Source: Ulva prolifera (taxonomy: Eukaryota; Chlorophyta; Ulvophyceae; Ulvales; Ulvaceae). Taken from it: 64,000 nucleotides of DNA. Position 1 is the stretch's first letter. Each line of letters starts with the position of its first letter. The notes under the pieces were generated by a model. It saw only the letters and a program-made list of their open reading frames with translations, ran no database searches and had not been told where the DNA came from. A program made the position numbers and the translations under genes. Location of the stretch: the NCBI GenBank assembly GCA_023078555.1, contig CM041196.1:9256985-9320984 (forward strand), read 5' to 3'. Positions 30,884 to 62,867 of this stretch are shown one piece after another.

Positions 30884-30901
30884 CACTAGGAGAATGGTGA
30901 C
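30884..30901 (+). repeat. Terminal inverted repeat, left
   Basis: CACTAGGAGAATGGTGAC. The GAATGGT core is shared with the internal palindromes of the element. Confidence 0.95.
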
Positions 30902-31210
30902 GTGGTGGTGAGGAACGTGCGAGGACGGCTCGCGGAAGAGGGGCGGATGCGTGGCGGAGCCCCCGGAACGGCGAGAGGACTGTTAGCGGAGCGTTCGGAA
31001 GGCAGTCCGGAGCGTGGGAGGAAGTTCCGCGAGCGTTCCGACCGGGTGTTCCGCCGGAACGTTTCCGGAGTGGTGCCGGAACGCGCGAAGGTTCCGCAAT
31101 GCATCCAGAGGACTGTTTGAGGAAGAATGCTTAAAAATTCGGAATGATTCCGGATCCGGGGACGTTCCGGCAGAGCCTTGCGGAAGCCGTCCGGAAGCCC
31201 GGACGAACAT
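30902..31210. promoter_or_regulatory. Left subterminal repeat region (CGGAA/TTCCG)
   Basis: More than a dozen CGGAA, GGAACG, TTCCG and CCGGAAC motifs in both orientations within about 300 bp, including GGAACGTTTCCGG. In CACTA elements such arrays bind an element-encoded protein (TnpA in En/Spm) and control transposition and transcription; the function here is inferred from position and density. Confidence 0.8.
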
Positions 31211-31408
31211 GCTGGTTCATGAGGGGTTATTACTTGGTTACTCTCTGTTCGACCGTGCCGGAGGCAGAGTACGTACGTGGTGAGGTCAGCGAGGCCTCCT
31301 TTACATGTGTGCCACGTGCATGTTGCCGTTGACACGGATGCGACTCGGTATCGGTGTTTGTTCTCTCTTATTCACTCTATTTTAACAGGTGCACCAGGTT
31401 TTCAACGT

Positions 31409-31534
31409 GAATCGCGAATGGTGCGATACGGACTTCCGGGATAGGCAGTTTCGCGTACGCATACCATCATGAACGCGTACGCAAAACTGCCTATCCCGCA
31501 AGACCGTATGTCATGTGCGCACCATTCGCGATTC
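31409..31534. repeat. Long imperfect hairpin (52/60-bp arms)
   Basis: GAATCGCGAATGGTGCG...GGGATAGGCAGTTTCGCGTACGC is followed after 14 bp by its near reverse complement. The right arm is 8 bp longer, so part bulges. It lies between the left subterminal repeats and the 3' end of the minus-strand gene, and may act as a terminator-like structure or be a nested foldback element. Confidence 0.8.
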
Positions 31535-31879
31535 TCGTTCAACCGCGAAACTATATTCATGATGTATACAAGCAGCATGTACACCGTTGTTCCGAAACAA
31601 GACAGCTTTGATGTGTTCACACGAGTTTGTAGGCAGGCGGTCATGCATAGGCAATCATAAACTATCATTGACATTGCTTACATTGAGATCTCGTCACCTT
31701 GTGACCTCTGCATGTCCATACGGAACGACATTACTACTAGAACAGGTCATGCCACGTCTTACATGTCATATACCCCACTCATACACTCGGTCACGACCGC
31801 CTGTGTTCAGGGACAGTGTCTTCTGAGCCCCCGTTGGTGTACAACTAATAGACAGACATCTTCAACCTGAGTCTTCACC

Positions 31880-34800
31880 TCACGACAGCATCTCAATCAA
31901 GGTCTGCATAAGCTCCCGGACCTCCTCCTGCACGCTCCGCCGCTGTATCATACCGCTGACAGTACACACATATTGAGATATACTTGTTCAGATAAACTGT
32001 GGCATACCTTGTCCTGTTTGATTGATTCATCGAGCTTCTTAAATTTGCCTGCGGACCCTTCCGGTTGCGGGCGGGGCCGGATGCCAGCTTCGCTAATTCG
32101 TCCTCGGACTTGGCTATTCTTTCTTCGAGAACCTTGAGGGCATGCCTGAGAGACTCTTCTTCGGCCTCTGCCTGGCGCTTCTCCAGAGCTGGATGAGTAT
32201 CTTTTTTCTTTGCCTTCTGCAGAACAACGATGCTGTCACACGATCTCTCGCACCTACGGAAACAACATGACCAGCATCACTCTTTTGTAAACTCACATGA
32301 CCAGCATATATACGATTTTGATGCATCAGCAAGCGCACTGCATCATCATGAACGCGCGTACATGAGCCTGGGCTTATGAAAGCACAGTTTATGTCAACCT
32401 TGTGGAGGTATGTACAGATCAAGGCGTACCGGTTCATCCTCCTGTATGTCCATCTCTGTGGGCCGCTTCGCCGAGTCTTGGGCACTGGCATCTCGTCGTC
32501 CGCAACTTCCGGGCCGGCTGCCACTATGTGGGTTAGGACCTCGAGTTCTACGTCATCGCTGTCAGGTACATCCTCCCGTGTTCGGTTGAGAACCGGAGGT
32601 GAAGGGGGGAGATCGGCGAGTGACCTGTCGCTGCCTCTCTTGCGGGCGCGTCTCCCGCCGTTGCTGGTCTCGGCCTGCGTAGCAAAGCATGTCGCGATTC
32701 TGTATCGACGCGACTTCCACGGCTGACATCGCTTTAAAATCCCTGCGTCATGTACAGCATGGCCGCGAAGACATACCCGGCCACCCTGTTGGCTCCTCCG
32801 GTGAGTGGGACGCAACGGAGATTCCTCTGTCTGTTCCCTGTTCATCTCACCCAGGATGAAATCCCTAAAGTAGTGGTTGTCAGCCACGTACACTCCGTCT
32901 TCCCGTGCCCACTGCGCGGCCGACTTCATCGTCACAGTGACTACGGCCACATTGCCTCACCAGGGTGAGCCACTGACGGGGGTGCGCCAAATGTGGGTGA
33001 GCGAGACTGTACCTTGGCGAAAAAGGCTCTGAAAGAGCATTGAGGGGGCAGTCAATGCAGTCTACGTGTTTTAGTGTCTGCGTATACCTTTGGGTGGTCC
33101 ACATCACTGGTATCTGTGATGTTCTACATTCCGTGACGTGGCTATGGCGCACCGCAGAGGTGAGCACTCAGTTGGCGGTGAGCAGTCCGAGGGTGTGCCT
33201 TCTAGACAGCATGACTTTTTCGCAACGGGCAGCTGCATGCTTGGCCATAGCTGCATTTCGGCGCATATGATGAGGTCTATACGTCCTAGATGTAGTGCTA
33301 CCTGCATTGCTGAGGAAGTGAAACAAGGTTTGGCTCACCGGAAGGGGTGAGTGTCATGGAAGGGTGCGCAGCGCGGGGTGCGCATGGTGCCTGGATGTCG
33401 CCAAATTTGCGCATGCGCGAGACAATCGGCCTCGGACAAGATCCTAGGCCTTCCTAATCAAATCTATTGTGTGGCATGAGCGGTAAATTACGGCTTGCAG
33501 CCCTCGCTGCTCGGGCGCACAATGTGTGAGGCGTGGTCAAGTATGGCAGCTGAAATAAATGCGTTTCGATCAAACTGATTTCGGAAATTTATTATGTGAA
33601 TGGTGGGTGCGGCATAAGTCATACACGCAGCACTGCGTGCTGCGCATCCTGCAGTCCATTTGCGCACGCATCGCCATCACACTTACTTTCGTGCCAATCC
33701 AGTGCACGTCCTCTGTCATCATCAGCAGCGTCAGTGAGCGAATGTGGCGGCCACCTGTCTGGATTTTCTTTAGCGCTGTGCACAGCACTATTTGCGCAAT
33801 GTAGACCATATGTCCCTTGTTGCCACGTCGCGGCGTGAAAGATGCGGGCAGGTACTAGCTGCCAGCTACGTCCGGGATATATGTCCCCGATCAAGTGTCA
33901 ATGCCAAGATTCAGAGTTGATGTCGGCAGTGTGGACAAGTAAATATACCGTCGCAGCATCGGGTTACCTTGCTCTTTGCTTCGTCACCTGCAGCCGTTGC
34001 ATGGCGCGATCTCCCTTCGTGCGAGCATGAAATATGTGATTCATCAGTCTAGGACTTCGATTATGCCAGCTCGTCTTCCTCAGCAGCTGGTGCACGTTGC
34101 AGTGTTAGCTGCAACTCTGCGGCACTACGCGAGCAGATATTCTGCAACAAGCTTTCGCAGTTTACATCGCAAGTATGACACTTTCTATTTCATTCGTATG
34201 GACCTGTAAGGTTTTCTGTTGTGCATTCTACGCGAACTGCGTTGTTGACCGACCTGTTCCAAGAGCAGGCCGCGAGTCCGGCGAAGATCACGACTTCTTC
34301 GCTTTTGCACGGGCGTTTATCATACCTGATCGGCTGGCAAAATCATCTTGCCCTCGTGATTCGGACGTTTGCGAATGCATTGCCATGGCATACCAGCTGA
34401 TTGACATAGCGTTGACGTGCTTGTGGGACGCCTTGGGTGGCTCTGACAGGTGGCTGTGTATACGTGATCGCAATGCTGACAAATGACGATACTTATCTGT
34501 AGCTGGTACGTCCGCATTGTGACCGGCTATGCAACAATTCTGGTGCACAGGTTTATCAGGTGAAACAACGTAAACAGAAACTTGCGTTGCAAAAGCTACA
34601 AACCAGTTTTGGCCAAGCGTTCTCCGGTGTCTGTGTCATTGGGTGTGTTGCCAGCCCGTGTTGCTATTGGGTTGCGACCCGGGCCTAAGTGTGTGGCATG
34701 CGGAAAATCAAAGCAGTGTGCATGAATGCAGATCAGCAATTGACAGCATCTCGTGACTCACCATGAAAACAGCTTTGACAGAGTCAGTCTAGCGTGGAAG

Positions 34801-37800
34801 GTGTGTCTGTCAATGTGGGGCTCACAGTCATAGCTTGCAGTCATCCATACATTTATGCCACATTGGTATGTGTGTGGAATTGTGACCGATTGGCTCGTGT
34901 CCTCACATTTATGTCAACATGATTGCAGGCAACCGAAAGATTTTACCGCCCGGCATAGCCAGCAAGCGAGGCACCTCCGCCTGGAACTTTATAGCTCCTG
35001 CCAGATCAGTCTCGCAAAGAGTAGAGGAGCCAATCTGCGTACATGACGGTATCTGGCAGGTGTTGTCCCATCCGCCTGGCCAGGGCCAGCATGACACCGG
35101 TGTAGCCAGACTGAGTTCCTTAGATGCGACCTTTTTTTTCTGTGGGCTCTCCGGCATGGGTACAGTGATACACAGATCGTGAACACCTCTGGTGTATGCA
35201 GGCAACTCGGATTGACAGAGCAGGATCCTCACAGAACCCGGAGAGTAATGACCGTAGAGAGGAGCGACATCCGACATCCATGCTCATGGGACGTATTACC
35301 TGTCCAAGCACCACTGTCTTGTACAGCTGCTGCATGTGTGCATGTTGTATAGTGTAGAGCCTGAGGCCCGTTCAGCAATGCTGTGATTGGGCACGCTGGC
35401 CCGTTGGGTGAGGTGAAGGTCACTGTAACGAGAATGTATGTCTACAAGTATGTTTCACTGAAATATACTACATACTGCACATGAAATGGCAATTGATCAG
35501 CCTAGTGTCCTGTTTTGCGCACCAATCAATGGCGCACCAGCGTTCAGATCGCGCACCCACAGTGGTGCACCTGGAAGGTGAGCCACTAGGTGTGGCGGTG
35601 GCAATACTGTGGGGGTGCGCATTGCAGGGGTGAGCGACTGGCATAACAGACCTTGCGGTGCAAATTCAGAGCTGCAACTTTCACTGAAGACAGAGGAACG
35701 TCGTACGAACTGTTTTTAGTCGGGCGACGACGCGTGTGCCCTGTGACACGGCAATATACCACAACGTGGGGTACCCACGTCCTCCGCAGCGCAACACCGA
35801 AAGACGAAAACGAGGCTGCATGATCGCACATACGCAGCCTGGAGTAATACTAGTTGCAGAAACACGGGCACAACTCGCTATGCGTTACCATGCATCGGTC
35901 GCGACTACTGGCAGTGGATGCAACAGGACCCGGCAACCAGCGCTGCCTGGACATGAGGACTCATAATAGCAAGAATACACGCAGATGATCACATTGTATT
36001 CTCCTGTGCTCCGCTGACGATGCGCCCGGAGTTCACAAAGGCTATCGTCTCCGAATCCATGACGTTCACCCAACAGGGACCCTGCTACAAGTGCGACTAC
36101 GATCACAAGAAAGATTGGTCATAGACCCTCCCAATGGAAATTTATTTACGAATTGCCGTCGCAGCTCGCGACGGACGCAGGACCAACGTCCCACCGTGCA
36201 TGTCCGCGCTGAGACAGGAAGCCAATAGCACGCACATTCAGCGACTTGCCGGATGCTATCGGAGCCAAGCCTGTCAATAATGCAACACAAACTCATATAG
36301 TCGTCCAAGAAGCCGTTTGTTGACGCAACGCGCTGTAAACAACATGGAACAAAGGCTCGCGGTAAGGAGCACTATCAAACACCAGAGATAACTGTCAGCC
36401 AGAACACGCGCGCATGGAACGGCTCGTCGCATCTGAGCATCGGTGAGGAATTTTTACATAACTCGGGCTACTCAGAGCGGAGCTCCGTGGCCACCGTGGG
36501 ACAAACTACAGATGTTTCGTCGTGATGCCTCACATGCATACGCACCCAGAACGTTGCCGAAACATGCCCGTTCTGCACCACAGCGACATCTATGAATTCA
36601 GCAGGAACTACACTACCTGCGAGGCCGATCCGCGCTCCATTTGGGGCTCGTTTCTTCAAATTCACATGTCCTCAGCCCTTTGCTCACCCTGGTTGCTCAC
36701 CCCTTGGTGAGCCAACTTGCTGTAGCTCCTGTGGTGCCATCGCCGTAAGCAGTCCTGGTTCCGATTCTGGACAGCTGCATGTATAGGTGATGTGTCAGTG
36801 GCGTGCGCTTGTCACGTGCACTAGGATGCTGTTGCCTAATGTGTTCGTTGTGCAGTAGCAAAACGTCCGCATCAGATGGGTCAGGCGCGGTGCACGAGAA
36901 TGGTTGGTGGGCCACCAGCCATTCGGGCATGCGTGCACGTCACTATTTTCACGCGCCTCGGAATGGTTGGTGGCCCACCAACCATTCGGGCAGGCATGCA
37001 CGTCAGTATTCACGCGCCTCGGAATGGTTGGTGGCCCACCAACCATTCGGGCATGCATGCACGTCAGTATTCACGCGCCTCGGAATGGTTGGTGGCTCAC
37101 CAACCATTCGGGCATGCCTGCATCTCACTATCCACGGGCCCCGAATGGTTGGTGGCCCACCAGCCATTCGGGCATGCATGCATGTCACTATTAACGCGCC
37201 TCGGAATGGTTGGTGGGCCACCAACCATTCGGGCATTCAGGCATCTCACTATCCACGGGCCCCGAATGGTCGGTGGGCCACCAGCCATTCGGGCATGCAT
37301 GCACGTCACTATTAACGCGCCTCGGAATGGTTGGTGGCCCACCAACCATTCGGGCATTCAGGCATCTCACTATCCACGGGCCCCGAATGGTCGGTGGGCC
37401 ACCAGCCATTCGGGCATGCATGCATGTCACTATTAACGCGCCTCGGAATGGTTGGTGGCCCACCAACCATTCGGGCATTCAGGCATCTCACTATCCACGG
37501 GCCCCGAATGGTCGGTGGGCCACCAGCCATTCGGGCATGCATGCCTGTCACTATTAACGCGCCTCGGAATGGTTGGTGGGCCACCAACCATTCCGAGCAG
37601 TCCTGCATGTACGTCACGATCCGGGAGCAAGAAGCACGCGCCTGTTCTTCCTCCACGTCCTTCACTGCCGCGGTCACTCTCGGGTCCTTGCGGTCTCGCT
37701 CGCTCTGCCGCATCTTCTTGTTGTGATCAAATGCTCGTCGAGGGAAACCCCTGCAGGAACAGGATGATCACGACTGTGCGTGTGTGCTTACACGAACACA

Positions 37801-38794
37801 GGATGGTCACCGATTACGGCCGAACATGTGCATCCTGACACAGTCGTGATGCACAGTCGTGATGTCGCATGCTCAAGAGGACACGCACTTGTACTTCACG
37901 TCCCTCAACATGGCTTTCTGGCCCCGAAATGCTGCTGCTATGTTCCTCGCAGCCGTGTACGCCGTCCCCTCTTTGCCCGCCTGCAGAAGTCAATCAAGTC
38001 TGGTCGTCATCGATGTACTGTGGTGGCCATTGCCTCCCGCGGAGCACAGTCCGTGGCGACCACTTCCAGCAAGAAAACAACAACTCGGTCATTCACACTA
38101 CACGCTCAGCCATACAACACAACACGAAACCATCCCAATCCACCGTAATCTTCACACTACCGTATGGCAACCGCCCCAGCAAGTCAGGCCGGCGATAGAG
38201 TCAAGTTGTTAGCAGGCATAGCACAAGCGTACCCCCGCTGCTGCCGCTGCGATCGCACCAACGTGCTATACTTCCTTCATACATCCGCAGCTTTGGGTCG
38301 CCGGTGTCCTTCAGCAGCGCCTGCATCAGCGGAGACGCCTTGTCCTCGTCCCTCATCTGGCCCACGATCGCCGACAGCTTGTCAGTCCACATCAGAACTC
38401 CCGACTGTAGTACCTCCCACACGTGATCGCTGTCGCACGTCGCAGCGGTAGCAGTGGAGCCCGCTGTGCGTGCCGACGCCCCTGGAGCGGAGCCTCGATT
38501 CTTCCGCAGGTTGATGGGCTGGACCAACACCGGGGGCTCGATGCCGCCAGCGATCTTCCCCTTCTGGAAGTAGAATGAAATACATCTCTTCAGGGACTCC
38601 ACGCTGTCGAGGTCCAAGGTGGCGTCCTCGTCGTTGGCCGACGACAGTGTCATGCCGTCCGACCCCCCTCCCCTTCGCCAGATACTCCTCGCTAGCACGT
38701 CCAGCATCCCATTCGCAGAGTCGTCATCCGCAGTGTCTTTGTCGACGACGATCGCGGCCTCTCGCTTGAACTGAAATTGAAGGCTGTCCGACAT
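31880..38794 (-). CDS. Unknown CACTA-encoded protein A, multi-exon, C-terminal coiled coil
   Basis: I do not recognise this protein. Exon 1 starts at ATG 38,794 (MSDSLQFQFKREAAIVVDKD, then an acidic stretch and LLKDTGDPKLRMYEG). Further exons supported by sense and splice signals: 37,980-37,889 (AGKEGTAYTAARNIAAAF); 37,750 to about 37,615 (GFPRRAFDHNKKMRQSERDR, then VKDVEEEQAR); 36,670-36,546 (LKKRAPNGARIGLAGSVVP); about 36,308-36,150 (DDYMSLCCIIDRLGSDSIRQ); 36,081 to about 36,000 (GPCWVNVMDSETIAFVNSGR); 35,110-35,043 (SGYTGVMLALARRMGQHLPD); about 32,940-32,430 (acidic DVPDSDDVELEVLTH); 32,253-32,008 (KRQAEAEEESLRHALKVLEE coiled coil); 31,955-31,880 (QEEVRELMQTLIEMLS, stop). Four of these junctions were checked and are in frame. 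The palindrome array at 36.9-37.6 kb falls in an intron. It could be the TnpA-like DNA-binding partner of the transposase. The exon list is incomplete and two genes rather than one remain possible. Confidence 0.6.
33000..34900. other. Long intronic or intergenic stretch of gene A
   Basis: No exon could be recognised here. The stretch, and 35,500-35,640, contain recurring GGTGAGC and GGTGCGC / GCGCACC words in both orientations (for example 33,001, 33,350, 35,517-35,625, 36,690-36,712), which may be further binding sites. Confidence 0.35.
36898..37593. repeat. Array of 12 palindromes, 60-61-bp spacing (cluster 1)
   Basis: Twelve copies of a 27-bp palindrome, GAATGGTTGGTGGCCCACCA followed by ACCATTC, start at 36898, 36961, 37022, 37083, 37143, 37204, 37264, 37325, 37385, 37446, 37506 and 37567. 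In the later part two versions alternate: TCGGAATGGTTGG next to ACGCGCC, and CCCGAATGGTCGG next to CCACGGGC, giving a 121-bp higher-order unit. Spacers carry GGGCATGCATGCACGTCACTA. Every copy can form a cruciform. The array lies in an apparent intron of gene A. Confidence 0.95.
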
Positions 38795-39130
38795 CGCGAC
38801 GCGTACACAACAGAGAGGACCGGAACCAAACAGACACTTAGCAGCCAATACGTTTACAGTAACTTCAACTTCTTTGGAACTTGGCGAAGCCTATCCGTCG
38901 ATGCTGGTATCCAACCTTTTGAAAACACAGTGCCGTGTTGGTGCCCGGCCATTGGCCACAGGGACACTCCCTCGATCGTTACATCCTCACGCATGATTAT
39001 CCCCCGCCACTCAACTCGTCCCCGAGTACGCTTGCACTGCGCCTGAACCTCGTTCATACCACGCCGCTCGCTTGCCGCGACGTCTTTCCATTCATCCAGG
39101 CAGAGTTTATCGACGTTTAATGTGCAGATA
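38795..39130. promoter_or_regulatory. Divergent promoter region between gene A and the transposase
   Basis: 336 bp separate the ATG of gene A (minus) from the ATG of the transposase (plus). Both genes must be driven from here unless 5' leaders are spliced. No TATA box is obvious. Shared control would couple the two products. Confidence 0.6.
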
Positions 39131-41326
39131 ATGGCTCCGCGTAGGCCTCGCACCGCCAAGCGTACTGTAGACGACGACCTTGCAACCGTTGGCATTCTGC
39201 GCCTTGATCCTCCTCTTCGTGAAGGGGACCGAAAGTTACTATACAAGTGCACTAAATGTAGTAAACCGTTTGACAGGCTTCTAACCGCCCAGAACCACCC
39301 CCGCGCCTGCCCCGCGGGGCGCGCTCAGACTCGTGACGATGGCACTGGCGATGACACAGGCAGCCAGCAAGTGGCGGGCAACCAGCCTCCGGGCGATGTC
39401 GACCTCGGTCGAGTCGACGAGGTCCTCATCGAGGTGTGCCTGTCCCTGAACACCTCGTCTGATCTCCGAGTGCTGACTATCTGGTGATCGTGATTGGTGT
39501 CATGTGGCCAGGTCCCTGAGGGCTCCGACGTATCCGAAGAAGACTACGGAGACGACGATGCGGACAGCCTTTACGACGACGCCAGCAGTGTCCTCTCCAG
39601 CCTGTCAGGAGATGACTGGGACACAGACTCTACCGAGGTTTGTCCTTTCGGTGTCTCCCGACGCAGCAAGATTATCCGACTTGCTCTTATGCTGGGCACC
39701 CACCCCCTGCTCCCTCTCGGCGTCAATGGCTAGTGACTATGTGCAGAGCGATGCCCTCGACGGCCGCGAGGGTCCACAGGTCGCAGCCGAGGCTGCAGCC
39801 GTGAAGGGGACTGCCGCATGGTGGCGTCAGAGACGGATGGATCCGGTCTCCGACACCTGCCGTCTCACAGTGTTGACTGTATCAATGTGGATCGCCAGCC
39901 TGAAAAGCATGTTCCGGATGAGTGATGTTGTGGTGGACATGTGGTGTCGTTTTGTGCATTATCTACTCTTACCAGATGGGAATATGTTCCCCCCATCCTT
40001 CCACCTGGTCAAGGCTGTCCTGGCTGTACCAGATGTCTCTTCGGTGACCCGGCACGTGTGCCCACAGTGCTGGACTCTCTTCCCAGGTATAAAGCCGTGT
40101 GATCATACCCACCACTTGGACGACGTCTGCAACACCCCAGGGTGCACCCAGAAGCGTTTCGAGGTGGACCTGGCAGGCAAGGGTGCACCTTGCCGGAGTG
40201 TCTTCTACTTTGGGGAGGCCGCATCGCTGAAAGACCTGATTCTGCAACCCGGCGTCCTTGCCGCGGTTCGTGCTCATCGAGTGCACGCCCTACAGGATCC
40301 CGCCGGTTTCTGGAAGTCCCCTGCCGGACGTGCCCTGAATGCCGCATGCGGGGGGATTTTCGACAAGGCTGACCCGGACGAGATTGCACTGCTTTTCAGC
40401 TTGGGTGCGCTCGCCTTGAGTTCGACCTATCCTGCGTCATCATCACTCAGTAGCCAGGCCATTGATATCGTCTGGGTCCAGTGGGGCCTGCAGTAGCCTC
40501 TCCCGGACACTGAGCCCGCTTGCAGGGGGTGACGGCGCCCAACTGTACGTGAACAAGCAACACGGGACCACAATCTGGGGCATCCGCCTGCTGGACCTCC
40601 CCCCTCATCTGTCTCATTGCAATGATGCTGGATCCCCCTGGGGGTTGGTCGAGGGCCCAACTGAACCCACGAACATGGACAGCATCCTTGCACAGGTACT
40701 CGAGTTCTTCAAGAAGCATGACCCAGGTACGTGTCAGTCTGGCGAGTGTGTACCCAACGCACACTCATGTCCGGCCAGTGCTTGATGTGGCTGTGTTTGA
40801 CTATGAACCCCCTACGATGCAGCCAGGAAGGGGGAGGACGGGATCGAAGCTTTCAAAGTCGAGATGCCCGACGGAACAGTTCTGCGCATCTGGCCTGTGC
40901 TCTGCTGTGTGGAGGGCGACATTCCATGGATGCAGAAGTTGACCAACAGCATCGGGCACGGCGGCAAGAGGGCGTGCTACCGTTGCGCCCAGAACGGCGT
41001 CTGGGTGTTCGCAGCCAACACAGTACGGTATGTTGGCTCCAGTTGCCGTGCCGTCGCCATGCTGCCTCTGACCACCACTGCTTACCCCTGGCATCCCGGC
41101 CAAGCCCGCCTCCGCCACCCCCTCCGACATGGCTTGGGGGCTCCCTACTGTCCTTATCAGACATCCGCCGTGCAGCTGGCTTGGGTTCCACGGCCCGGTC
41201 ATCCAGCCTCAGCCGGTTCACGCTGCGGGGCCTGATCAAGGAAAGCCCCTCACAGCGGCGCAAGAGGCCGACATTGCCGCGGGGGCGGTGCCAAGGATGG
41301 TGCCCGGCAGTGTGGAACCAGACCCC

Positions 41327-41365
<39 letters not shown>

Positions 41366-43520: not shown

Positions 43521-43582
43521 GTAGGTCATCCCCCATATGGCGGCCACCATGCGGAATGCATGTGCCCAGTCAGCGCCACCGT

Positions 43583-43750
43583 GGAATGGTTGGTGCCCCA
43601 CCAACCATTCCGCAGGCGAGCAATGCATGTGCCCAGTCAGCGCCACCGTGGAATGGTTGGTGGCCCACCAACCACTCCGCATGCGAGCAATGCATGTGCC
43701 CAGTCAGCGCCACCGTGGAATGGTTGGTGGCCCACCAACCATTCCGCATG
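43583..43750. repeat. Three palindromes (cluster 2)
   Basis: GGAATGGTTGGTG...CACCAACCATTCC at 43583, 43650 and 43717, period 67 bp, with spacer CGAGCAATGCATGTGCCCAGTCAGCGCCACC. Same core palindrome as cluster 1 but a different spacer. It fills the gap between the transposase stop and the peptidase gene, so it could act as a terminator, insulator or promoter-proximal binding array. Confidence 0.93.
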
Positions 43751-43985
43751 CGAGCAATGCATGTGGCCAGCACTACTCAAGTGTCTACAGGATGCCCGCG
43801 TGCACAGCGTCGATGCTGTGACGTCCTGTGGAGTTGGCCAAGGCCAGCCTGGCTTCTCAAGGATACGCGCTTCTCACACGCGCTGTATCCATGTACCTCC
43901 TTTACAGTACACCACGCGTCTCGCTCCAGCTTGTGTAGTATTAGCTCCCATTGTCGTTCGAGCCCGTGGCCCGCGATTCATTCCG

Positions 43986-46859
43986 ATGTCTTCAACGTTG
44001 AACATTGCCACGATCACCGTGCAAACGCTGAAATCGTACCTCACTGAATTAGATAGTAGAGCTCAATATGAGCCTACTTTTTATAGGTTCGTGGAGGTAG
44101 CGTCACAGGGAAACTGGGTTCCTGGCAACCGCATCCCGTCGCTGGTCATGGACAGGCCACACGGCTTTCCGGTGGACATGATGGAATCCGGCTGGGTATT
44201 GACAGCTTACGATGTCGCGATGATAGATACCATCCTTGCCGGCGATAAAAAGGCGGAGTCCAGGATGATGGCAGGCTTCTCGTCCATGGGAAGGGTACTA
44301 ACCCGCGAAGTAGCGGGCGCAAGTACTCCATACCGAGCTGCTACGCACCATTTAAAGCTGCTATGGGTCGCGATGCGAGAAGCCGCGTTTCAGCGGGCCG
44401 TCCAGTCAGAAGCACCGTGCGGGCTGCATGCCATCATGGTGTACAGGTCCGTCGCCACGACCCAAGGCCCCGACGAGACCATGGCAGGGCTTCTGCTTCG
44501 CCTCCGGATGACCATCGGTGGCCGGCCGATTACAGCATGGTGGGATAGGCTCCAGGCCAGCGCCCCACCAGCCACTCCGATGTGGCCCAGACCGGCGGTC
44601 CTCGAGGCCCGCTTAACGGCGCCAGTAATGCCGCCGCAGCTCGCACTCCAGGGTGCACAGCCGTCGGCCCCGCATGGCGGTGCCATGCCATCTGGGTCAC
44701 CGCAGGCCCCCGAGACTGGCCCTCCCGAGAGGGCAGAATCCTGCGGCCAGAGCGCTGTGGGGACCACGGTGGCGTCGCGCCTGGCACCAGCCCCCGACAG
44801 CCCCCGGGACGATGACGCAGCGGAACGTGCAGTGGCGGCAACACCGCCAGCGGCTCTGCCGGATCGACAGGAGTGCGCGGTCCCCAAGGCAAAGGGGGCT
44901 GCTGCTTCTGGGCGTGCAATGATGCACCCTGCCCAGCCCAGGAGGTTCAGCCGCGGCGCAGTACTGGCTGCAGCCGCCCAGGACCCTCCTGGGCCCACAC
45001 CGGCCTCGCCGCGCCAGTTAGCCGGTGCAGCTGGGCCGATGGAGGTGGACACCCCAGACGGTGGGGATGGCGCAGCTCGCCCATCCGCTTCGGGCCAGTT
45101 AGCCGGTGCCGCTGGGCCGATGGAGGTGGACACCCCAGACGGTGGGGATGGCGCAGCTCACCCACCCGCCGTGGGGAAGGGGTTCTTGTCCCCAGAGAGC
45201 TTGCTGCCACCGGAGGGCAGGGGAGGGAGACAGCCAATGAACCGGGCTCCGGAGAGGTCGGATGCCCGGCCGCTGAAGCGGCTGGCCGCGGAAATGTCGC
45301 ACGAGGCCCCCACGGGGAACCTCCTCCGCGGCATGAAAGTCGACGTGGTGGATGTGGAGGGTCCGTCAGGTGGCGCTAGAGTGCCCAGTGTTGAAGTGCA
45401 CCTGGCAGATTTCGGTGCCACAAAAGTTACGGTCGATGTGGCTGTCGCCCATTTCCGGGAGTTCTGGGTGACAGAGTGGTTCAGCTCTCTCCCGGTGCAG
45501 TATGCGGTAGTGAAGGCGGCTGTCCTAGCCGGGCCGGGGGTCATTGCGGTCCCGTCAGACCACATCGCAGGACTGGTCACCCGTGACCCTAGCAGCGACC
45601 CCGAGGCCCGTAGAATGCTGATGCACCTCGCCAAGTGGCTGAAGAGGGCGGACGCACTGAACTCAAGGTGTCTCCTCATCCCGGTGCCAACGGGGAAGCA
45701 CTGGGCACTTGCAGTGGTGTACTCTCCAAGTGCGATTCCAAATACCATCGTATGCACTTGTAACTGTGCATGTGAACACCCCCCCCCCCCCCCAAAACCC
45801 CCCGATTTCCCCACCTTCCCCCGTTTGTGCCGTATGACACAGTGCCCCTGTGGACACTCTAACCACCCCTACATGCAGGGCTTCTGCTGCTTGGGAAGTG
45901 CCCCGTCATGAGCTGGTTTGATTCACTTGCCGACGCGTCGGCAAGTGCACCAACTGCCCTCATAGACGTGATGAGCCTGGCGCTGTGTCAGGGCCTTACC
46001 GGGGTACCCCCCCTAACTGAGCTGCCTGAGGGGTTATCGACACCTGGTCGACAGAAGTTCCAGCCGAAGCGCGGAGCCAAACAAGGTGCCCTGCCAGCGT
46101 TGAAGCCGAAGCACCGCCTCAAATTACGCGTGGTATGTCTCATCTGTGTGTCACATCACTGTCGCCGTCAGTTGCACCGCATCACAGTGTGGCGGACTAG
46201 TCCTGCCAGCCACAAGTGGGGCCTCTGAACACAGGCGCGGTGTGCAGGTGAAAGGTGTTCCTGAACAGCGGAATACCTTTGACTGCGGGGTCCACACCTG
46301 CCTGATGGCAGAGGCTGTGGGTGACGCCATTAAACAGAGCGACCAGGGTCGCCAGAACATGGTGGTATTGTCCACCAGCGACGGGTCCGCTGTGGATCGG
46401 GGGGCTGTCAGCCGGCTGAAGCTGTTGAAGGCGGAGCATGTAGTGATATACCGTGTCCTCATGGCACGTACACTGTTACAGGAATGGGAGAATAAGGGGC
46501 GTGCAGGGGATTTCGTTGGTCGCCTAGGCTCAGAGGAGGCCCGACGCATCTTAATTGATGCCAGGTGGGATGTGAACCTGAAGGAGCCTATCTGCGCGGA
46601 CCTCACGGAAGAGGAACTACGGTACCGCTCCAGCCACCAATTGCCTCCTTCAGTGCAATGCATGTACGTGGCGCGTGTCCATGTCCAGGCACCATCGATA
46701 GTTGGCATGTCTTCTGACGCGGGAGCATCTGTCTGCAGGCACTGGTTCAGGACGACATTGTGGACTGATATTGTCCCCAGTGTTCAGAAGCCGGCGGAAG
46801 CCCTGAACGCCGAGTATAGATCCCTATTTCAAATGTCATTGCCAAGCCTTAGGCGATAA
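43986..46859 (+). CDS. Ulp1/SENP-like (C48) cysteine peptidase of the CACTA element
   Basis: Exon 1 (43986-45729) starts MSSTLNIATITVQTLKSYL. A long Ala/Pro-rich linker follows with an exact-type duplication QLAGAAGPMEVDTPDGGDGA at about 45,018 and 45,096. The peptidase domain begins near VAVAHFREFWVTEWFSSLP and includes VPTGKHWALAVVY (catalytic His). Exon 2 (45879-46132) supplies MSWFDSL (catalytic Asp). Exon 3 (46248-46859) supplies VPEQRNTFDCGVHTCLMAEA (Gln and catalytic Cys). The full His-Asp-Gln-Cys set of Ulp1 peptidases is present, and both junctions are in frame (A+GG gives Arg; phase 0). About 870 aa. Many CACTA and related plant/algal elements carry such a peptidase; it may cleave SUMO-like tags or process element proteins. 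A possible extra in-frame intron near 46,662-46,738 does not alter the catalytic part. Confidence 0.88.
45779..45794. repeat. 16-base poly-C tract in peptidase intron 1
   Basis: C run on the coding strand inside the 149-bp intron between the His and Asp exons. Confidence 0.85.
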
Positions 46860-46975
46860 ATACAGAATATGCGCATGTTGAGTACAGCAGCTGCGCTGCT
46901 CAGTAGATGACTGATGCTGTCCAGGCGGATGTTATTTTAGCAGAAACTACTGACAAAGTTGAGTCATTTGTTGAT

Positions 46976-46980
46976 TGTAA
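46976..46980 (+). terminator. TGTAA poly(A) signal after the peptidase gene
   Basis: TGTAA, the usual chlorophyte polyadenylation signal, 117 bp after the stop codon at 46,859. Confidence 0.5.
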
Positions 46981-47375
46981 TACTAACAGCAGACATGTGT
47001 TGCATGCGAACTGAAGCCATTGAGGATGGATAGTTATGTTTACACGAGATAACGATTGGGATACTGAGTCGAAATCCGTAGGTAAACTGTGGCGTCTTGC
47101 CTTATGTACCTATTGTGTTCAGAACAGTGTCAACGGTGCCACCCTGGCAGCAGCCCACAGCGCTGCAGTAATCGAGATAACGAGGTACAGTGCAGCTGCA
47201 GCGAAATGGCATCACGAACATAAGTATCAGCTCGAGACAATACGCACCAGTAATTGCATAGGTATACACGGACTGCAGGTTACAGATCCGTGTTGTGGCA
47301 CATCGCACCCCCACGCTAACACACACACCCCACTGCAATGAACCCCTTCAAATTCCCTACAAATCTACAGGCAGC

Positions 47376-50300
47376 CTACTCCCCGCCGGGTATGTCACCG
47401 TCATCCGCCTCCAGTATACCCAGCGCCTCTCGTAGTTCACTCATGGGGTCTTGGGGAGACTGCAAACACGGCGCCAGTTAGGCCACATCACGAGGTCACA
47501 CTTCGGAATCGTAGATACGGTGGACCGGACAGGGACGACGTAGGTGGACAGGGGACTCATACAACCAGCGACACACCTCCTGACTCGTCAAGAGGACCTC
47601 GTTCATGGTGGTGGCGTCTGGAATCAGCCCATGGCCAGAAAGGACCACCATGAGCATGATCCTCTGGTCATCCCCGGGTGACTGTAGACGCGGGTTGCAG
47701 CGCGTCATTGTCCCCCACATGGCAGCGGCACACTGCAGCTTCGTCTCCCTGTCGCAGGTGGATGGACCGGACGAAGGCGGATCGTCATTTATGGTTATGA
47801 CGGTTTTGCGGCCACGGTCCTGCTTGTTAACGGATACTACAAGAGTCCCAGGACCGGCTGGCACCAGCGAGGTCGCTGGGTCCCACATAGGGCGGTCTGG
47901 TCCCGACGTGGGGTCGACGGGGTCATACTGAGGCCCGACCGTCGGGGGCTGTGAGGCGGTGGACCTCACAACGCTCGAGGTGCCCCCCCCTCCGCCCCCC
48001 CCCCCCCCCCCGGCAAGACCCCAGAGGATGGATCCGAAGAGGGGGGGGCAACGCCTGACACGTGTACGCGGGCCAGAGTACCCAGAAGGGTACCTCCGTC
48101 GGGCCATGATGCGTTCAGGGCCGTTGGTGGCCCTGACGCGCAGCCCCAATCATCCCCGGGCCCCGAGCTGCTGCCAGATCCTGGCCTATCTGCGGACACC
48201 ACACCCCCCCCACCCGCGGCCTTTGGCAGGCCCCCCCCTGGCAGCAGGTGCCTGCTGAGCCGGCTGCGACAGCGCAGCTGCGGCGTTGTCAGTGCCGGCG
48301 GCTGCAGCGGCAGGGCCACCGCCACCACTCCCCCCACCCGGGGCCTTTGGCAGGCCCCCCCCGGCAGCAGCTACCTGCTGAGCCGGCTGCGACAGCGCAG
48401 CTGCGGCGTCGTCAGTGCCGGCGGCTGCAGCGGCGGGGCCACTGCCACCACCCCCCCCCACCCGCGGCCTTTGGCAGGCCCCCCCCGGCTGCAGGTGCCT
48501 GCTGAGCCGGCTGCGACAGCGCAGCTGCGGCGTTGTCAGTGCCGGCGGCTGCAGCGGCAGGGCCACCGCCACCACTCCCCCCACCCGGGCCCTTTGGCAG
48601 GCCCCCCCCCGGCAGCAGCTGCCTGCTGCGCCGGCTGCGACAGCGCAGCTGCGGCGTTGTCAGTGCCGGCGGCTGCAGCGGCGGGGCCACTGCCACCACT
48701 CCCCCCACCCGGGCCCTTTGGCAGGCCCCCCCCGGCAGCAGCTGCCTGCTGCGCCGGCTGCGACAGCGCAGCTGCGGCGTTGTCAGTGCCGGCGGCTGCA
48801 GCGGCGGGGCCACTGCCACCACCCCCCCCACCCGCGGCCTTTGGCAGGCCCCCCCCCGGCAGCAGCTGCCTGCTGAGCCGGCTGCGACAGCGCAGCTGCG
48901 GCGTTGTCCGTGCCGGCGGCTGCAGCGGCAGGGCCACTGCCACCACCCCCCCCACCCGCGGCCTTTGGCAGGCCCCCCCCGGTAGCAGCTGCCTGCTGAG
49001 CCGGCTGCGACAGCGCAGCTGCGGCGTTGTCAGTGCCGGCGGCTGCAGCGGCGGGGCCACTGCCACCACCCCCCCCCCCCCGGGGCCTTTGGCAGGCCCC
49101 CCCAGGCAGCAGCTGCCTGCTGAGCCGGCTGCGACAGCGCAGCTGCGGCGTTGTCAGTGCCGGCAGCTGCAGCGGCGGGGCCACTCCCACCACCCCCCCC
49201 ACCCAGGGGCTTCGGCAAGCCGGCGAGGTCCCCATCACCCGGGTCCACGTCGCTACCAGATCCCTTTCCACCGCCGGTGGTGCAGGTGGAACTATTCCCA
49301 CCCCCCTCCGCAGTGGACACCAGCGGTGCACCCAGGGCATCGGGGGGTAGCTGCTGGCGTACACAATGTGGGAGGTGCCCAAGCTCGCCGCTGTACACAC
49401 AGCGAGTGTGTTTGAAACCATCCCCCTAGCTGTGTCTCGCGCAGGCAGTTGAACGCTGTTATGACACTGCAGGGCATCCAGGAAAACACTCAAGAGCGGC
49501 ATGACACACCTGGCGCATTCTGGAACCTGCATCCCCATGACGATAGCCCTTGTAGCCAGGATTTGCGCCGCGTCGTACCCCCAGTCCTCAATGTCCTGGA
49601 ACGACGCTGGGACAAGGGCAAGCAACTTACTCTTCTTCTTTGCGCCCCCTTGATCTGCGGCACCTTCAATCTCAGGGACACTGGTGGTGCACAGGAACCG
49701 CCATGCCCTCAATGCCCAATGCCAGATGGTATCGCCCGGGCAGACGTCAATGAGGAGGGAGGTGAAATGGTGCACCGGGCTCCCGACGCCGGTGGGTGAC
49801 AGCCCTGCAAGCGGGGTACCGTTTAGAGGCCCACCGGGGGAAAGGCATCGCGTACACTACCAAACCAGGGAGCCGAACCAGCAACACCTCGGAACAGGCA
49901 GAGGCAGTCTAGGGACGCACAGGAAGTGTTCACAGCGGTGACCAGTATGGCCGCCATGAGAGGATCCAAAAAGCAGGGCCCGGCATCGCGATAGGGTTCA
50001 AGTTCCCACCCCGGGACCCGCAGCTTGACATCGGGGTCTGCGTGCGCCCTCCCAAACACCATAGCCTGGTAGGCGGCGAAGCAAAGCTGCAGCCCCGACC
50101 CGCAGGACTCCCGCTTCCCACGTACTGGCATGTACGCGACGCAGGCACTAAGCATGGCTTGGTGGAACGTCGTGACATCTGCGAAGCATTCAGCAAAAAG
50201 CATCGATTGATCAGACTCCTGCATGCTAGTTGAGTATACAACTCCTAGATTGAGTGACTACATGTGCAGGTAACACATGTACACGCCGTAGTCGTGGCTA

Positions 50301-51119
50301 CAGGGAGATTCGTATTTGAAGGAGCCACACCAGCCTCGGATTCAGCAGAGGGTGTGCCGCTGCGTACTCCACAACAAAAGGGGCCAGATTATAGACGGCC
50401 GCAACAAACTCCCCGATGATGTCAATGTCCTGCAGACGGTCTGTTTGCTAAATCGCTCCACCCCTGACCTGATTCCCCGATCGGGCGAAAAGGACACACG
50501 CAAGGCCGGAATGAGGAAAACAGCGATAGGCTACTGGTCAACGTCACATGCGCCAGGCAAGTTTGTAGAGGGTGCCCAGCGAGGAGGAACGCACATATAC
50601 GTCTATGAGATGAGGGTAGAATATGTGGATGTCGGTCAGCAGACCCCCACCGGCGGCCAAGTTTGTCACCGCTTTGGACACCTCACCATTGTGCCCTGAC
50701 AGGACGGGTCGGCAAGCTGTCTCCTGATAGACCCGCACTGCAAGTTCATCGCTTGGAGACCTCCCGCTTTCAGAGCAGAGAAGTGCCGCCCTCGTCTTCT
50801 CGTACAAGAACAACGAGCACAGGGGGTTACAACCCACCGGCACGTTGCAGGTGGGCTCGGGCACCTTGAGTTTGGCTTTGCCCTTTTTACCGCCCGTCCC
50901 CTCCTCGGCCTTTGAACGCTTGGTGCTGGGCACGTCCATGCACTGAGCGTCTGGGGGGAGGCCACTGAAGAAAAAACACCAGGCCCACAACATGGCCCGA
51001 GGAGTGGCGACGTAGTACTCTACAAAACACATCCCGCTCACACAACGTGATACACCACGTGCAACTGTCGGAAACACGGCGACAGGGAGGCACTGTCGAC
51101 AGTACACAAGTGTCAGAGA

Positions 51120-51160
<41 letters not shown>

Positions 51161-51797
51161 CATACTGCCGTGTTCCTTCGGGGGGGCATCGGGCTGTTTC
51201 CGCTTCTTGGAGCTCTTCAACTGCGGGAGCCCGCGCGCCGCCCTGTCGCTCTGTTGTACAGTCTCGGAGCCAGCAGCCCCAGCGTGACCCGATTCGGTAG
51301 TTGCCCGAGCGGGCGCTGGTGGGGCATGCTGGCGAACATTCCCAGTTACAGGCACCTACATGATCCGGGGGGACTCGGGATGGCGAATTCACCAACAAGG
51401 GCGGGTGTGACAAGGGCGGGGGTGTGGCGGATGGGCATGGGCGCCGACAGTGTATTTCCCGTGTGTAATGTCGGGGCCACACAGAACGGACCTCCTGGGT
51501 CAGGGGTGGGCACACCTTTTTCTGGCCGTACAACTTCGCCAGCACACAAGGGGCGTCACATCCAGGTGGAGGTGCTGAGATTCCCTCCCATGCTGGGACC
51601 AACAACTCCTCCTGCTCCCGCATCCACGCCCCGAGTTGCAGACAAGCGAGCACTACAGAATACTTCACGTATGCTACGCCCTGTTCTACTGTTTGCGAGA
51701 CACGGCCCACCTCCTGTAGCCCGGCATTCAACCAAGCGTCGCAAGCGCTGTCGGAGCCGGGCTGTCCTTTACGGCCGACGCGCCCCAAGTCCGTAAA
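47376..51797 (-). CDS. Unknown CACTA-encoded protein C, multi-exon, repeat-rich
   Basis: No family recognised. Supported exons, 5' to 3': up to 51,516 (ACDAWLNAGLQEVGRVSQTV, LLVPAWEGI, KLYGQKK); 51,328-51,166 (HAPPAPARATTESG, basic LKSSKKRKQ); 51,064 to about 50,545 (ARGVSRCVSGMCFVEYYVAT, LWAWCFFFSGLP, KKGKAKLKVPEP); 50,429 to about 50,340 (DIDIIGEFVAAVYNLAPFVV); 50,218-49,861 (DQSMLFAECFADVTTFHQAM, AAYQAMVFGRAHADP); 49,804 to about 49,435 (HHFTSLLIDVCPGDTIWHWA, LLALVPASFQDIEDWGYDAA); a Gly/Ala/Pro repeat region (about 49,400-48,190); a C-terminal part to about 47,502 (TKLQCAAAMWGTMTRCNPRL); 47,459-47,376 (SPQDPMSELREALGILEADD, stop TAG). Junctions 51,516/51,328, 51,166/51,064, 49,861/49,804 and 47,502/47,459 are in frame. 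The first exon start is not resolved. Converges on the peptidase gene. Confidence 0.62.
47995..48011. repeat. 17-base poly-C tract (Gly-coding on the minus strand)
   Basis: C run that reads as a poly-Gly segment in protein C, just 3' of the repeat array. Confidence 0.8.
48190..49210. repeat. Eight tandem units of 123-124 bp within gene C
   Basis: The landmark CGGCTGCGACAGCGCAGCTG starts at 48261, 48384, 48508, 48632, 48755, 48879, 49002 and 49126. Spacings are 123 or 124 bp and differ only in the length of short C runs. On the minus strand a unit encodes an Ala-rich block, GTDNAAAALSQPAQQ, followed by a Gly-rich block with LPK. Because 124 is not a multiple of 3, neighbouring units change frame as assembled. 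Either homopolymer lengths are wrong, or part of the array is intronic, or this domain is broken. Confidence 0.93.
51122..51158. repeat. 37-base poly-G tract in a gene C intron
   Basis: Poly-C on the coding (minus) strand, starting a few bases after the GTATGA donor at 51,165. Longest homopolymer in the window. Confidence 0.9.
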
Positions 51798-51819
51798 ATG
51801 GCCGGACCGAGATATCAGC

Positions 51820-52053
51820 GTGCCAATCACGGGAGACAGCGCCGGCCGCAGACAGGCGGGTGGTGTAGACGCAGCAACGCTTGTGTCAGGCTGGGCATCG
51901 CCAGGGCAACAGGCTACAGCTTCCTCACCACCCACGACAGACATCTTCTACAACACTTTTCGAAATTATCTGAAAAACTTTCGGGACGCAGCACACAATC
52001 AGCTAGCCGCAGTAGACGCCAGGACGATACCAGCGATAGATACACAACTCTGA
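51820..52053 (+). other. Possible small coding exon opposite the gene C start
   Basis: A plus-strand frame ends PPTTDIFYNTFRNYLKNFRD, AAHNQLAAVDARTIPAIDTQ and a stop. The wording is more protein-like than usual for a shadow frame and follows an AG at 51,818-51,819, but no partner exon was found. It overlaps the presumed promoter or first exon of gene C on the other strand. Confidence 0.25.
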
Positions 52054-52239
52054 GTCTATATCAATGCCGTGATGAGACTGCGGTCACGCGACAACAACCT
52101 TGCCTCGTCTGAAGCGACTCACAGCGCTCTGGGAAGCTTGGAAGGTACCACGCTCACTCCAGAGTTCAGCAAAGTCCGTACTCGGTGCTCGTGGGCATCC
52201 TGTCGACACTTGAGCAGCCGGGCTCATGCATTGTGCGCA

Positions 52240-52460
52240 TACAGAATGGTTGGTGAGGCACCGACCATTCCACGAAGGTGCTGACTGGGCACACGGGCGC
52301 TGCCCCAGAGCGGACTGGAAGGGGCACATGCATTGCTCGCATACAGAATGGTTGGTGAGGCACCGACCATTCCACGAAGGTGCTGACTGGGCACACAGGC
52401 GCTGCCATGGAAGGGGCACATGCATTGTGCGCATACAGAATGGTTGGTGAGTGTTCGAAT
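52240..52460. repeat. Palindromes, variant type (cluster 3a)
   Basis: GAATGGTTGGTGAGGCACCGACCATTCC at about 52,244 and 52,345 and a half copy at 52,438, with spacers ACGAAGGTGCTGACTGGGCACAC and GGCACATGCATTG. The same palindrome family as clusters 1 and 2 but with one changed base in the right arm (CGACC). Confidence 0.9.
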
Positions 52461-52729
52461 GCAAGCGCGAGTGGAAGCGTCATACCGTAAGTTAAGTTGG
52501 GCGAAATGTTAAGTATGTGTGCGGAGTACTTAGCACATGACGCCTGAGATCTGGGATCACACCTGCATGGTCAGTATCTGAGTCAGATACTTGAACCATG
52601 ACCTTGTTCGACCTATACAGAGAGCTGGAATGTGTCTTCTCATTCGCGGGCTGGTGACTGCCACGTGTCACCCCGTGCGTGCATTCGCATGTGCACCTGC
52701 CTTGTGCGCTACGAGGCACTTTCACAACA
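52452..52729. repeat. 278-bp direct duplication, copy 1
   Basis: As read here, identical to 52,922-53,199. It begins TGTTCGAATGCAAGCGCGAG and ends ACTTTCACAACA. Confidence 0.93.
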
Positions 52730-52921
52730 CCTCCCCCCTTCACGGGAGCGAGCGTGTGCAAGCTCATGAGGCACATGTGGAAGTTCTCTCGGAGCGCGTC
52801 GAGTGTTTGGAATGTCCTGTGGGAAGTTGTGCACACGAGAGGTCATGTTGGAGCGATCACAGGCGTCATGTGGTGCTTACGTTATGATGGGCCCATGTGA
52901 TCTTGGTTACTCATCGATACC

Positions 52922-53199
52922 TGTTCGAATGCAAGCGCGAGTGGAAGCGTCATACCGTAAGTTAAGTTGGGCGAAATGTTAAGTATGTGTGCGGAGTACT
53001 TAGCACATGACGCCTGAGATCTGGGATCACACCTGCATGGTCAGTATCTGAGTCAGATACTTGAACCATGACCTTGTTCGACCTATACAGAGAGCTGGAA
53101 TGTGTCTTCTCATTCGCGGGCTGGTGACTGCCACGTGTCACCCCGTGCGTGCATTCGCATGTGCACCTGCCTTGTGCGCTACGAGGCACTTTCACAACA
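52922..53199. repeat. 278-bp direct duplication, copy 2
   Basis: Second copy, 470 bp downstream. In copy 1 the palindrome block precedes the duplicated segment; here it follows it. Confidence 0.93.
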
Positions 53200-53380
53200 G
53201 TGAGGCACCGACCATTCCACGAAGGTGCTGACTGGGCACACGGGCGCTGCCCCAGAGCGGACTGGAAGGGGCACATGCATTGCTCGCATACAGAATGGTT
53301 GGTGAGGCACCGACCATTCCACGAAGGTGCTGACTGGGCACACAGGCGCTGCCATGGAAGGTGCCACACCGACCATTAGC
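53200..53380. repeat. Palindromes, variant type (cluster 3b)
   Basis: Repeats the 52,253-52,411 segment (half palindrome, spacer, complete palindrome at about 53,294, spacer). Confidence 0.9.
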
Positions 53381-53669
53381 AGGCCAGATCCAAATTACGA
53401 ATGAGGTCCATATCTTACCCAGACAATCCAGCGTTGCACCAGCCTATAAGGCGAATCCTCGACGCATCAGTGCGTCGCATTTAAATCCTGCTGTGCTCAC
53501 TCCTTTCCAACATAATGTGTCAACACATTTCCAAGCTCGGTCTGCCGGACCTGCATGTGCGCTGTAGCTTTCGCAACAGCTTGCAATGGCTTTCCAGTGT
53601 TCTTCATCTGCGGAGACTGCTTGGCCTGGTCTCGCGCTATGGAAGAGCACACGTTCCGGTCAGCGCTGC

Positions 53670-53887
53670 TGCCCAGGATGCCATAGGACATTCCACGGCT
53701 ACCAAGGAAGCCATAGGACATTCCGCGGCCACCAAGGAAGCCATCGGACATTCCGCGGCCACCGAGGAAGCCATAGGACATTCCGCCACCATCGTTCCTT
53801 GTGAAGCATACGCACGCGGGCGGATGGTCAAGAGCCTCGTAGGAACGTTCCTCTGTCAGCGGAACGCCTTCGGTTCCGCCCCGGAAT
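53670..53887. promoter_or_regulatory. Right subterminal repeat region
   Basis: Four units of about 33 bp built on GGACATTCCGCGGCCACCAAGG lie at 53,686-53,800, followed by AGGAACGTTCC, GCGGAACGCC and GGTTCCGCCCCGGAATG. These match the CGGAA/TTCCG words at the left end and are likely transposase-complex binding sites. Confidence 0.8.
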
Positions 53888-53905
53888 GTCACCATTCTCC
53901 TAGTG
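53888..53905 (-). repeat. Terminal inverted repeat, right
   Basis: GTCACCATTCTCCTAGTG, exact reverse complement of the left end. Confidence 0.95.
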
Positions 53906-53908
53906 ATA
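53906..53908. other. Target-site duplication, right (ATA)
   Basis: ATA directly after the transposon and before GCCCTCCTGTGG of the satellite. Confidence 0.93.
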
Positions 53909-55590: not shown

Positions 55591-55616
55591 GTCCACCTAG
55601 TAACCAGCCTCGTTGC

Positions 55617-55795
55617 AGCGCTGCTGCCCCCAATGTTAGCATGTTCGGTGTCACGCCCTCTGCACTGCGAGGTAAGACAGAGGGCATGCCAGCAAAGACA
55701 CTGTCACCACAGCACTGCTGCCCCCGACGTGTGCACGTTCGGTGCCACGCCCTCTGCACTGCGTGTGAAGGCAGAGGGTATGCCAACACAGAATC
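55617..55795. repeat. 94-bp tandem duplication after the satellite
   Basis: AGC[G/A]CTGCTGCCCCC...GTTCGGTG[T/C]CACGCCCTCTGCACTGCG...CAGAGGG[C/T]ATGCC occurs at 55,617 and 55,711. Each unit contains an inverted GCCCTCTG / CAGAGGGC pair, so each can fold. Confidence 0.8.
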
Positions 55796-55799
55796 GCGC

Positions 55800-58680: not shown

Positions 58681-58689
58681 CCGGCCAGG

Positions 58690-62530: not shown

Positions 62531-62632
62531 GCTTCTCAAATCACTCCCTCCATGAATGCCTCCGCAATTCGTAGCAGACGCTTCTCAAATCACTCCCTCC
62601 ATGAATGCCTCCGCAATTTGTAGCAGACGCTT
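62531..62632. repeat. 49-bp tandem duplication
   Basis: GCTTCTCAAATCACTCCCTC... occurs at 62,531 and 62,580, differing by one base (GCAATTCG / GCAATTTG). Confidence 0.9.
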
Positions 62633-62867
62633 ATGCAGGAGTCTGCGGCTGGATGTGGCTGCAGGGCTTTGATGGCAGGGCCGCGTGACTGGGAGTTCAA
62701 GCATCTGTGCTGGGTGGCATGAGCAAATGTTCCCGGGATGCCCCAATGGTTACGGCCACGGCCTGCCTCACCGCAGCTGGGCCTGCGCCCCCTGCCGCAA
62801 GGGTGCTGGCAGGGTACCGGGCCAGGAGCAGTCGTCTTGCCGAAGAATTTGCGTGGCCGCTGGGCGT

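Follow-up and report, generated by a model that had tools for sequence, protein, structure and literature searches.

Features at the Locus and Ends of the Element

We analyzed a 64,000-nucleotide stretch of the Ulva prolifera genome (GenBank assembly GCA_023078555.1, contig CM041196.1, positions 9,256,985 to 9,320,984 of the forward strand). This whole stretch is called the window, and all positions are counted from its first letter. A CACTA-type element occupies exactly 30884-53905 (23,022 bp), and a 172-bp tandem repeat lies on either side of it, at 29829-30883 and 53905-55592. The features that delimit the element are as follows:

30884-53905, no strand: whole CACTA-type element, with terminal inverted repeats (TIRs), an ATA target-site duplication and a rebuilt empty site
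30881-30883, no strand: target-site duplication ATA, left copy
30884-30901, plus strand: left TIR, matching 18-mer
53888-53905, minus strand: right TIR, matching 18-mer
53906-53908, no strand: target-site duplication ATA, right copy

The terminal 18 bases of the two sides are perfect inverted repeats, CACTAGGAGAATGGTGAC. We searched the 64 kb for this 18-mer with up to three mismatches and found two matches; both were perfect and both were the element ends (0.04 expected from shuffles). Next to the left end stands GAG-ATA, and next to the right end ATA-GCC. When the flanks were joined with one ATA removed, a 172-bp monomer was restored that was identical at 172/172 positions to the satellite unit three to the left and 90–99% identical to the 13 other units compared. 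The insertion and its rebuilt empty site are real, and the original prediction, which had specified 18-bp terminal repeats, an ATA duplication and a reconstructed unoccupied monomer, was borne out to the base. It could be argued that two partial copies were joined during assembly and that no single element exists. This is very improbable, given the perfect TIRs, the matching ATA and a rebuilt monomer that equals a nearby unit.

The base composition of the satellite was also recorded. It is strongly CpG-poor, with observed/expected ratios of 0.35 (29829-30883) and 0.31 (53905-55592), each being the value of one repeated monomer that counts once. The element (0.82) resembles the other flanking DNA (0.81 and 0.75). 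This comparison was used for no conclusion.

Assignment to the CACTA Superfamily

We consider it very likely that the locus holds a large CACTA (En/Spm) cut-and-paste transposon that carries an Ulp1 gene and is inserted in the 172-bp satellite. The superfamily assignment follows from the ends, the 3-bp duplication and the subterminal GGAACG repeats. The termini are short TIRs that start with CACTA, as in that superfamily. A 3-bp target-site duplication is also named as a feature of the superfamily (PMC4158355), and the ATA duplication with its rebuilt empty site agrees with this.

The two subterminal regions are as follows:

30884-31283, no strand: left subterminal region, with 6 copies of GGAACG/CGTTCC
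53506-53905, no strand: right subterminal region, with 5 copies of GGAACG/CGTTCC and a 30-bp tandem repeat at 53675-53786

GGAACG was counted on both strands. The left 400 bp of the element has 6 copies and the right 400 bp has 5, as against 10 copies in the remaining 22.2 kb of the element (0.45 per kb) and 11 in 41 kb of flank (0.27 per kb). As a control, random window pairs were drawn from the flanks, and only 7 of 1975 pairs had any 6-mer present at least five times in both members. The distribution of GGAACG is a subterminal arrangement of the CACTA type.

Searches for relatives weigh against this assignment to a limited extent. The TIR, a transposase exon, an exon of the minus-strand gene G4 (described below) and a 29-mer of the satellite had no relative among viral contigs, and the transposase exon had none in a genome contig collection; both collections are unlikely to hold eukaryotic DNA. 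A search of Rfam at gathering scores gave no match.

The Transposase-Like Gene

39131-43520, plus strand: TNP2-like transposase gene, 8-exon model, with a DUF4218 match
41330-41367, plus strand: run of 38 C within the transposase gene, exonic in the open model and intronic with another acceptor

The exons of the model are 39131-39433, 39512-39637, 39747-40404, 40526-40726, 40823-41027, 41322-41723, 41927-42031 and 42167-43520. The model is open over 1117 residues, and its introns are GT-AG at all 7 junctions. Alternative splice predictions exist around 41023-41374 and 41724-41815. Along the exons of the model, TNP2-type motifs were read by eye in the expected order. The last exon matched DUF4218 weakly (E 0.0023–0.01, below the Pfam cut-off), and Zn_ribbon_8 (E 0.018) and HEWD (E 0.02) were other weak matches below the cut-off. 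By motif order and the sub-threshold DUF4218 match, the gene is a probable TNP2-like transposase. This is weaker than the original prediction of a TNP2 transposase had claimed. Transposase_21 of Pfam was not detected in the 4 transposase open reading frames (ORFs) or the 3 models searched. In the Protein Data Bank (PDB), nothing was found for the last exon, and the rest gave one chance match (E 1.1). A single-sequence structure model of one exon was of no use (mean predicted local distance difference test (pLDDT) score 39.6).

In the catalytic region, a D-G pair is found where the first acidic motif would be expected. Against a working TNP2 enzyme, a stretch reading F-R-Y-G-V-A-H lies where the D-x-x-H motif would be expected, close to the 38-nt C run, and it has G-V-A-H, with G instead of D. 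The sixth intron of the open model (41,724-41,926) removes this stretch. Of the candidate introns listed that would keep it in frame, those with a GT donor are 35–38 bp long or delete a conserved G-V-K-G stretch, and the others have GC donors; keeping G-V-A-H and G-V-K-G together requires a GC-AG intron or a very short one. Either the D-x-x-H motif has been lost, or this part of the model or of the assembly is in error. CACTA transposases have been reported to have an acidic DDD/E triad (PMC4158355).

The Ulp1 Protease Gene

43986-46859, plus strand: Ulp1/Peptidase_C48 gene, 3 exons in the model, with catalytic H, D, Q and C

The start of the gene is 44,148 in the model, or else an in-frame upstream ATG at 43,986; its end is 46,859. 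Peptidase_C48 was its only Pfam match. With the first model the match had an E-value of 1.1e-07 (32.4 bits); with another first junction, which gives a joined domain, it reached 3.9e-09 and 37.1 bits, compared with a gathering cut-off of 20.7. The catalytic residues H, D, Q and C occur in order in the spliced model, within KHWAL, WFDSL, PEQRN and FDCGV (D was placed by eye). The best PDB match of the protein was SENP1 (E 0.018), which aligns weakly at the H motif and at the Q..C motif. A single-sequence structure model of the N-terminus was of no use (mean pLDDT 38.4). An Ulp1 peptidase with all four catalytic residues, as the original prediction stated, is confirmed. The protein is probably a SUMO-type protease that acts on host or element proteins.

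Minus-Strand Genes without Relatives

The remaining coding candidates lie on the minus strand:

31880-32940, minus strand: G1, weak coiled-coil-like candidate gene, or 3' exons of G3
37638-38794, minus strand: G3, spliced, beginning MSDSLQF; one model extends to 37312, into array A (see below)
47376-51944, minus strand: G4, spliced, 11 exons in models
48202-49221, no strand: 124-bp array in G4, Gly/Ala-rich on the minus-strand reading
51122-51158, minus strand: run of 37 C on the sense strand, within an intron predicted for G4

G3 is divergent from the transposase gene, with 336 bp between their ATGs. The training set of a codon model was limited to the transposase and Ulp1 genes (1762 codons), and the model was applied to the remaining regions. 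The 5' part of G4, G3 and G1 scored 29.2, 25.4 and 14.1, respectively; the best of 40 Markov resamples scored 3.8, 4.7 and 4.5, so that none of 40 reached the observed score in any case. Antisense controls scored from −1.6 to 1.8, with one exception: the transposase gene scored 15.1 when read in antisense. Because this control exceeds the score of G1, G1 is weak as a gene standing alone. A joint G3+G1 gene scored 44.3, with a 3.9-kb intron. Between 33.0 and 36.9 kb the codon score was about 0 on both strands.

These scores support two or three minus-strand genes. The original prediction had proposed two large spliced genes that it could not assign; codon bias agrees with such genes, but their number is two or three and all are on the minus strand. 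No Pfam family was found above cut-off for G3, G1 or two pieces of G4. The 123/124-bp spacing of the array in G4 breaks the reading frame, and the models cross it only via introns inside the repeats. The same prediction had described largely in-frame exon junctions. This holds for the transposase and Ulp1 models, which are open with GT-AG introns, but it does not account for the D-x-x-H region of the transposase or the array in G4.

A nested insertion at 32959-36693, suggested by a 12-bp perfect inverted repeat, was considered and rejected. We estimate that about 0.5 such pairs per 4.1 kb are expected by chance, and no duplication was seen.

Age and Autonomy of the Copy

The insertion is complete-ended and probably recent. 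The original prediction had argued for recent activity. Support for this comes only from the clean ends, the undecayed split monomer and an internal duplication of 278 bp whose copies are 100% identical; the missing D-x-x-H motif argues against autonomy, and the copy may be non-autonomous.

A stronger form of this doubt is that the element is a dead relic with complete ends and a non-working transposase, movable only by the enzymes of another copy. Neither splicing of the transposase has the D-x-x-H motif, and the 123/124-bp array in G4 cannot hold one frame. On the other side stands the open 1117-residue model with GT-AG introns, which makes the relic somewhat less probable. Long exons with consistent codon bias, the Ulp1 catalytic positions and the clean ends also speak against it, and part of the array problem could stem from misassembly of long G/C runs. 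We regard a dead relic as a serious but somewhat doubtful possibility.

The GAATGGT Motif and Its Palindromic Arrays

GAATGGT is the sequence of bases 9–15 of the terminal repeat. It recurs within the element in the following features:

31401-31542, no strand: 142-bp fold-back (a hairpin like a miniature inverted-repeat transposable element), nearly perfect, z-score −14.07, arms containing GAATGGTGCG with the GAATGGT motif
36898-37593, no strand: array A, with a unit of about 61 bp that contains the GAATGGT palindrome, and 19 copies of GAATGGT/ACCATTC
43548-43770, plus strand: array B, with a 67-bp unit that contains the GAATGGT palindrome, located between the transposase stop and the Ulp1 start
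52151-53364, minus strand: array C, with GAATGGT palindromes, lying upstream of G4 and including a 278-bp repeat at 100% identity

We counted 38 copies of GAATGGT in the window on both strands, 37 inside the element, for the most part in palindromic arrays, and 1 in 41 kb of flank, and it was the top 7-mer by element/flank ratio. Dinucleotide composition predicts 6.5 copies in the whole window, a comparison weakened by the choice of the motif after the arrays were seen and by the non-independence of array copies, which form 8 clusters (both ends, the fold-back at 31.4 kb, one single copy, one cluster each in arrays A and B, and two in array C). Within arrays the motif is arranged as a palindrome, and three folded units gave hairpin z-scores of −3.1, −4.1 and −1.9. 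Arrays B and C have 245 bp in common (71% identity), each oriented like its downstream gene, Ulp1 or G4. This common stretch ends 181 bp before the ATG at 43,986 (Ulp1) and 241 bp before the ATG at 51,944 (G4), and the distances from the array limits to the same ATGs are 216 and 207 bp. None of the 37 copies within the element falls in a predicted exon, in an exon list that takes G3 from the joint G3+G1 model and leaves the array in G4 out.

The simplest reading is that a TnpA-like protein encoded by the element would bind the subterminal GGAACG copies and the GAATGGT motif, which the TIRs and the palindromic arrays share. We regard this reading of the motif arrays as evenly balanced between right and wrong. 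Candidates for such a second DNA-binding (TnpA/TNP1-like) protein are G3/G1 and G4. Several observations weigh against it: array A is upstream of no predicted start; it is intronic in the joint G3+G1 model and partly exonic in the other G3 model, whose terminal exon (37312-37750) enters the array and would include some GAATGGT copies; and an Ulp1 start at 44148 would lie 162 bp farther from array B.

Alternatively, slippage may have expanded ordinary tandem repeats into these arrays, in which case they would play no part in binding and share their 7-mer with the TIR by chance. Satellite arrays do occur in large CACTA elements (PMC8978399), this element has other arrays too (the 124-bp array and the 30-bp repeat), and the array motif and the TIR overlap by 7 bases only. 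However, slippage does not readily explain why the same palindrome is found in three separate arrays, why only 1 of 38 copies lies in the 41-kb flank, why arrays B and C are oriented like their downstream genes, or why the exon list contains no copy, with the reservation that the alternative G3 model would enter array A. We consider slippage a plausible but rather doubtful explanation.

Flanking Genome

On both sides of the satellite and the element, at 1-29800 and 55600-64000, are regions with genes resembling leucine-rich-repeat (LRR) genes. The LRR-like ORFs are as follows:

6604-8475, minus strand: LRR-like ORF
11477-13498, minus strand: LRR-like ORF
22508-24355, plus strand: LRR-like ORF
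58752-59546, minus strand: LRR-like ORF

Of five flank ORFs searched, four matched LRR families, all below the curated cut-offs of Pfam (best E 1.4e-08). The DNA of the left and right flanks is 64–74% alike, in pieces. Element-like DNA in the flanks was limited to one 25-bp match (92%, E 0.005). A 15-bp minisatellite of 14 copies (17996-18209) lies within an open frame on the minus strand (17850-18836), beside an ORF that is LRR-like by eye.

Proposed Mechanism and Significance

From what is known of the superfamily, the transposase-like protein would cut at the CACTA ends, and the 3-bp duplication would be made on insertion. An element-encoded TnpA-like protein, for which G3/G1 or G4 are candidates, may bind the GGAACG and GAATGGT sites. 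With arrays placed before Ulp1 and G4, this protein would be able not only to mark the ends of the element but also to regulate its genes. The Ulp1 protease would act on host or element proteins.

The presence of Ulp1 and motif arrays together makes an anti-silencing role worth testing, even at low probability. The element might have its own sequence-specific system, a separately arisen CACTA counterpart of VANC/KIU in Arabidopsis, in which the Ulp1 protein or G4/G3 would recognize the GAATGGT palindrome arrays as marks of promoters and ends of the element, and Ulp1 would strip SUMO from silencing factors at those places. We consider this improbable. The function of the Ulp1 domain in Arabidopsis elements is called unknown in a review (PMC13317346).

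A CACTA insertion that is exact to the base, with genes and a visible empty site, is a useful reference copy. If the motif shared by the ends and the arrays upstream of genes is a binding site, the element would be a compact system in which to test how genes, ends and escape from silencing are coordinated in large transposons. It would also bear on the recurrence of Ulp1 proteases in plant DNA transposons.

Comparison with Known Systems

The VANDAL/KIU Mutator-like elements of Arabidopsis have a short family-specific motif in non-coding tandem arrays (PMC5735166, PMC10398659, PMC13317346). The Ulva element resembles them in its element-specific motif arrays, which would likewise be non-coding unless the G3 model that enters array A is right, and the KIU version also has an Ulp1 domain (PMC13317346). 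They belong to another superfamily, and motif binding and loss of methylation have been demonstrated for them (PMC5735166, PMC10398659, PMC13317346), whereas for the Ulva arrays such effects are hypothetical.

The original prediction was right that the element carries more than the usual transposase pair, though CACTA elements of 16–20 kb and CACTA elements with Ulp1 are already in print (PMC8978399, PMC2528002, PMC2613891). Among open-licence publications, judged by titles and abstracts, we found no green-algal CACTA element with Ulp1. Tgmt* of soybean is a CACTA element of 20.5 kb; it differs in its 13-bp imperfect TIRs and in one large gene that yields both functions, and Ulp1 is not mentioned in the text available (PMC2613891).

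Jozin elements of Chenopodium have TNP2 with DUF4218, to which the probable TNP2-like gene of the Ulva element with its weak DUF4218 match would correspond; they are also alike in that some contain Peptidase_C48 and that one C. quinoa element, 16.5 kb long, includes a satellite array (PMC8978399). However, Transposase_21, TAD and DUF4216 were detected in Jozin (PMC8978399) and undetected in the Ulva element. The CACTA-ULP families (Cactavine) of grapevine are from a land plant, and the available text of their report describes no arrays of a terminal motif and does not contain the word "subterminal" (PMC2528002). They are nevertheless like the Ulva element in combining TNP2, which is probable in the Ulva element, with Ulp1 in one element (PMC2528002).

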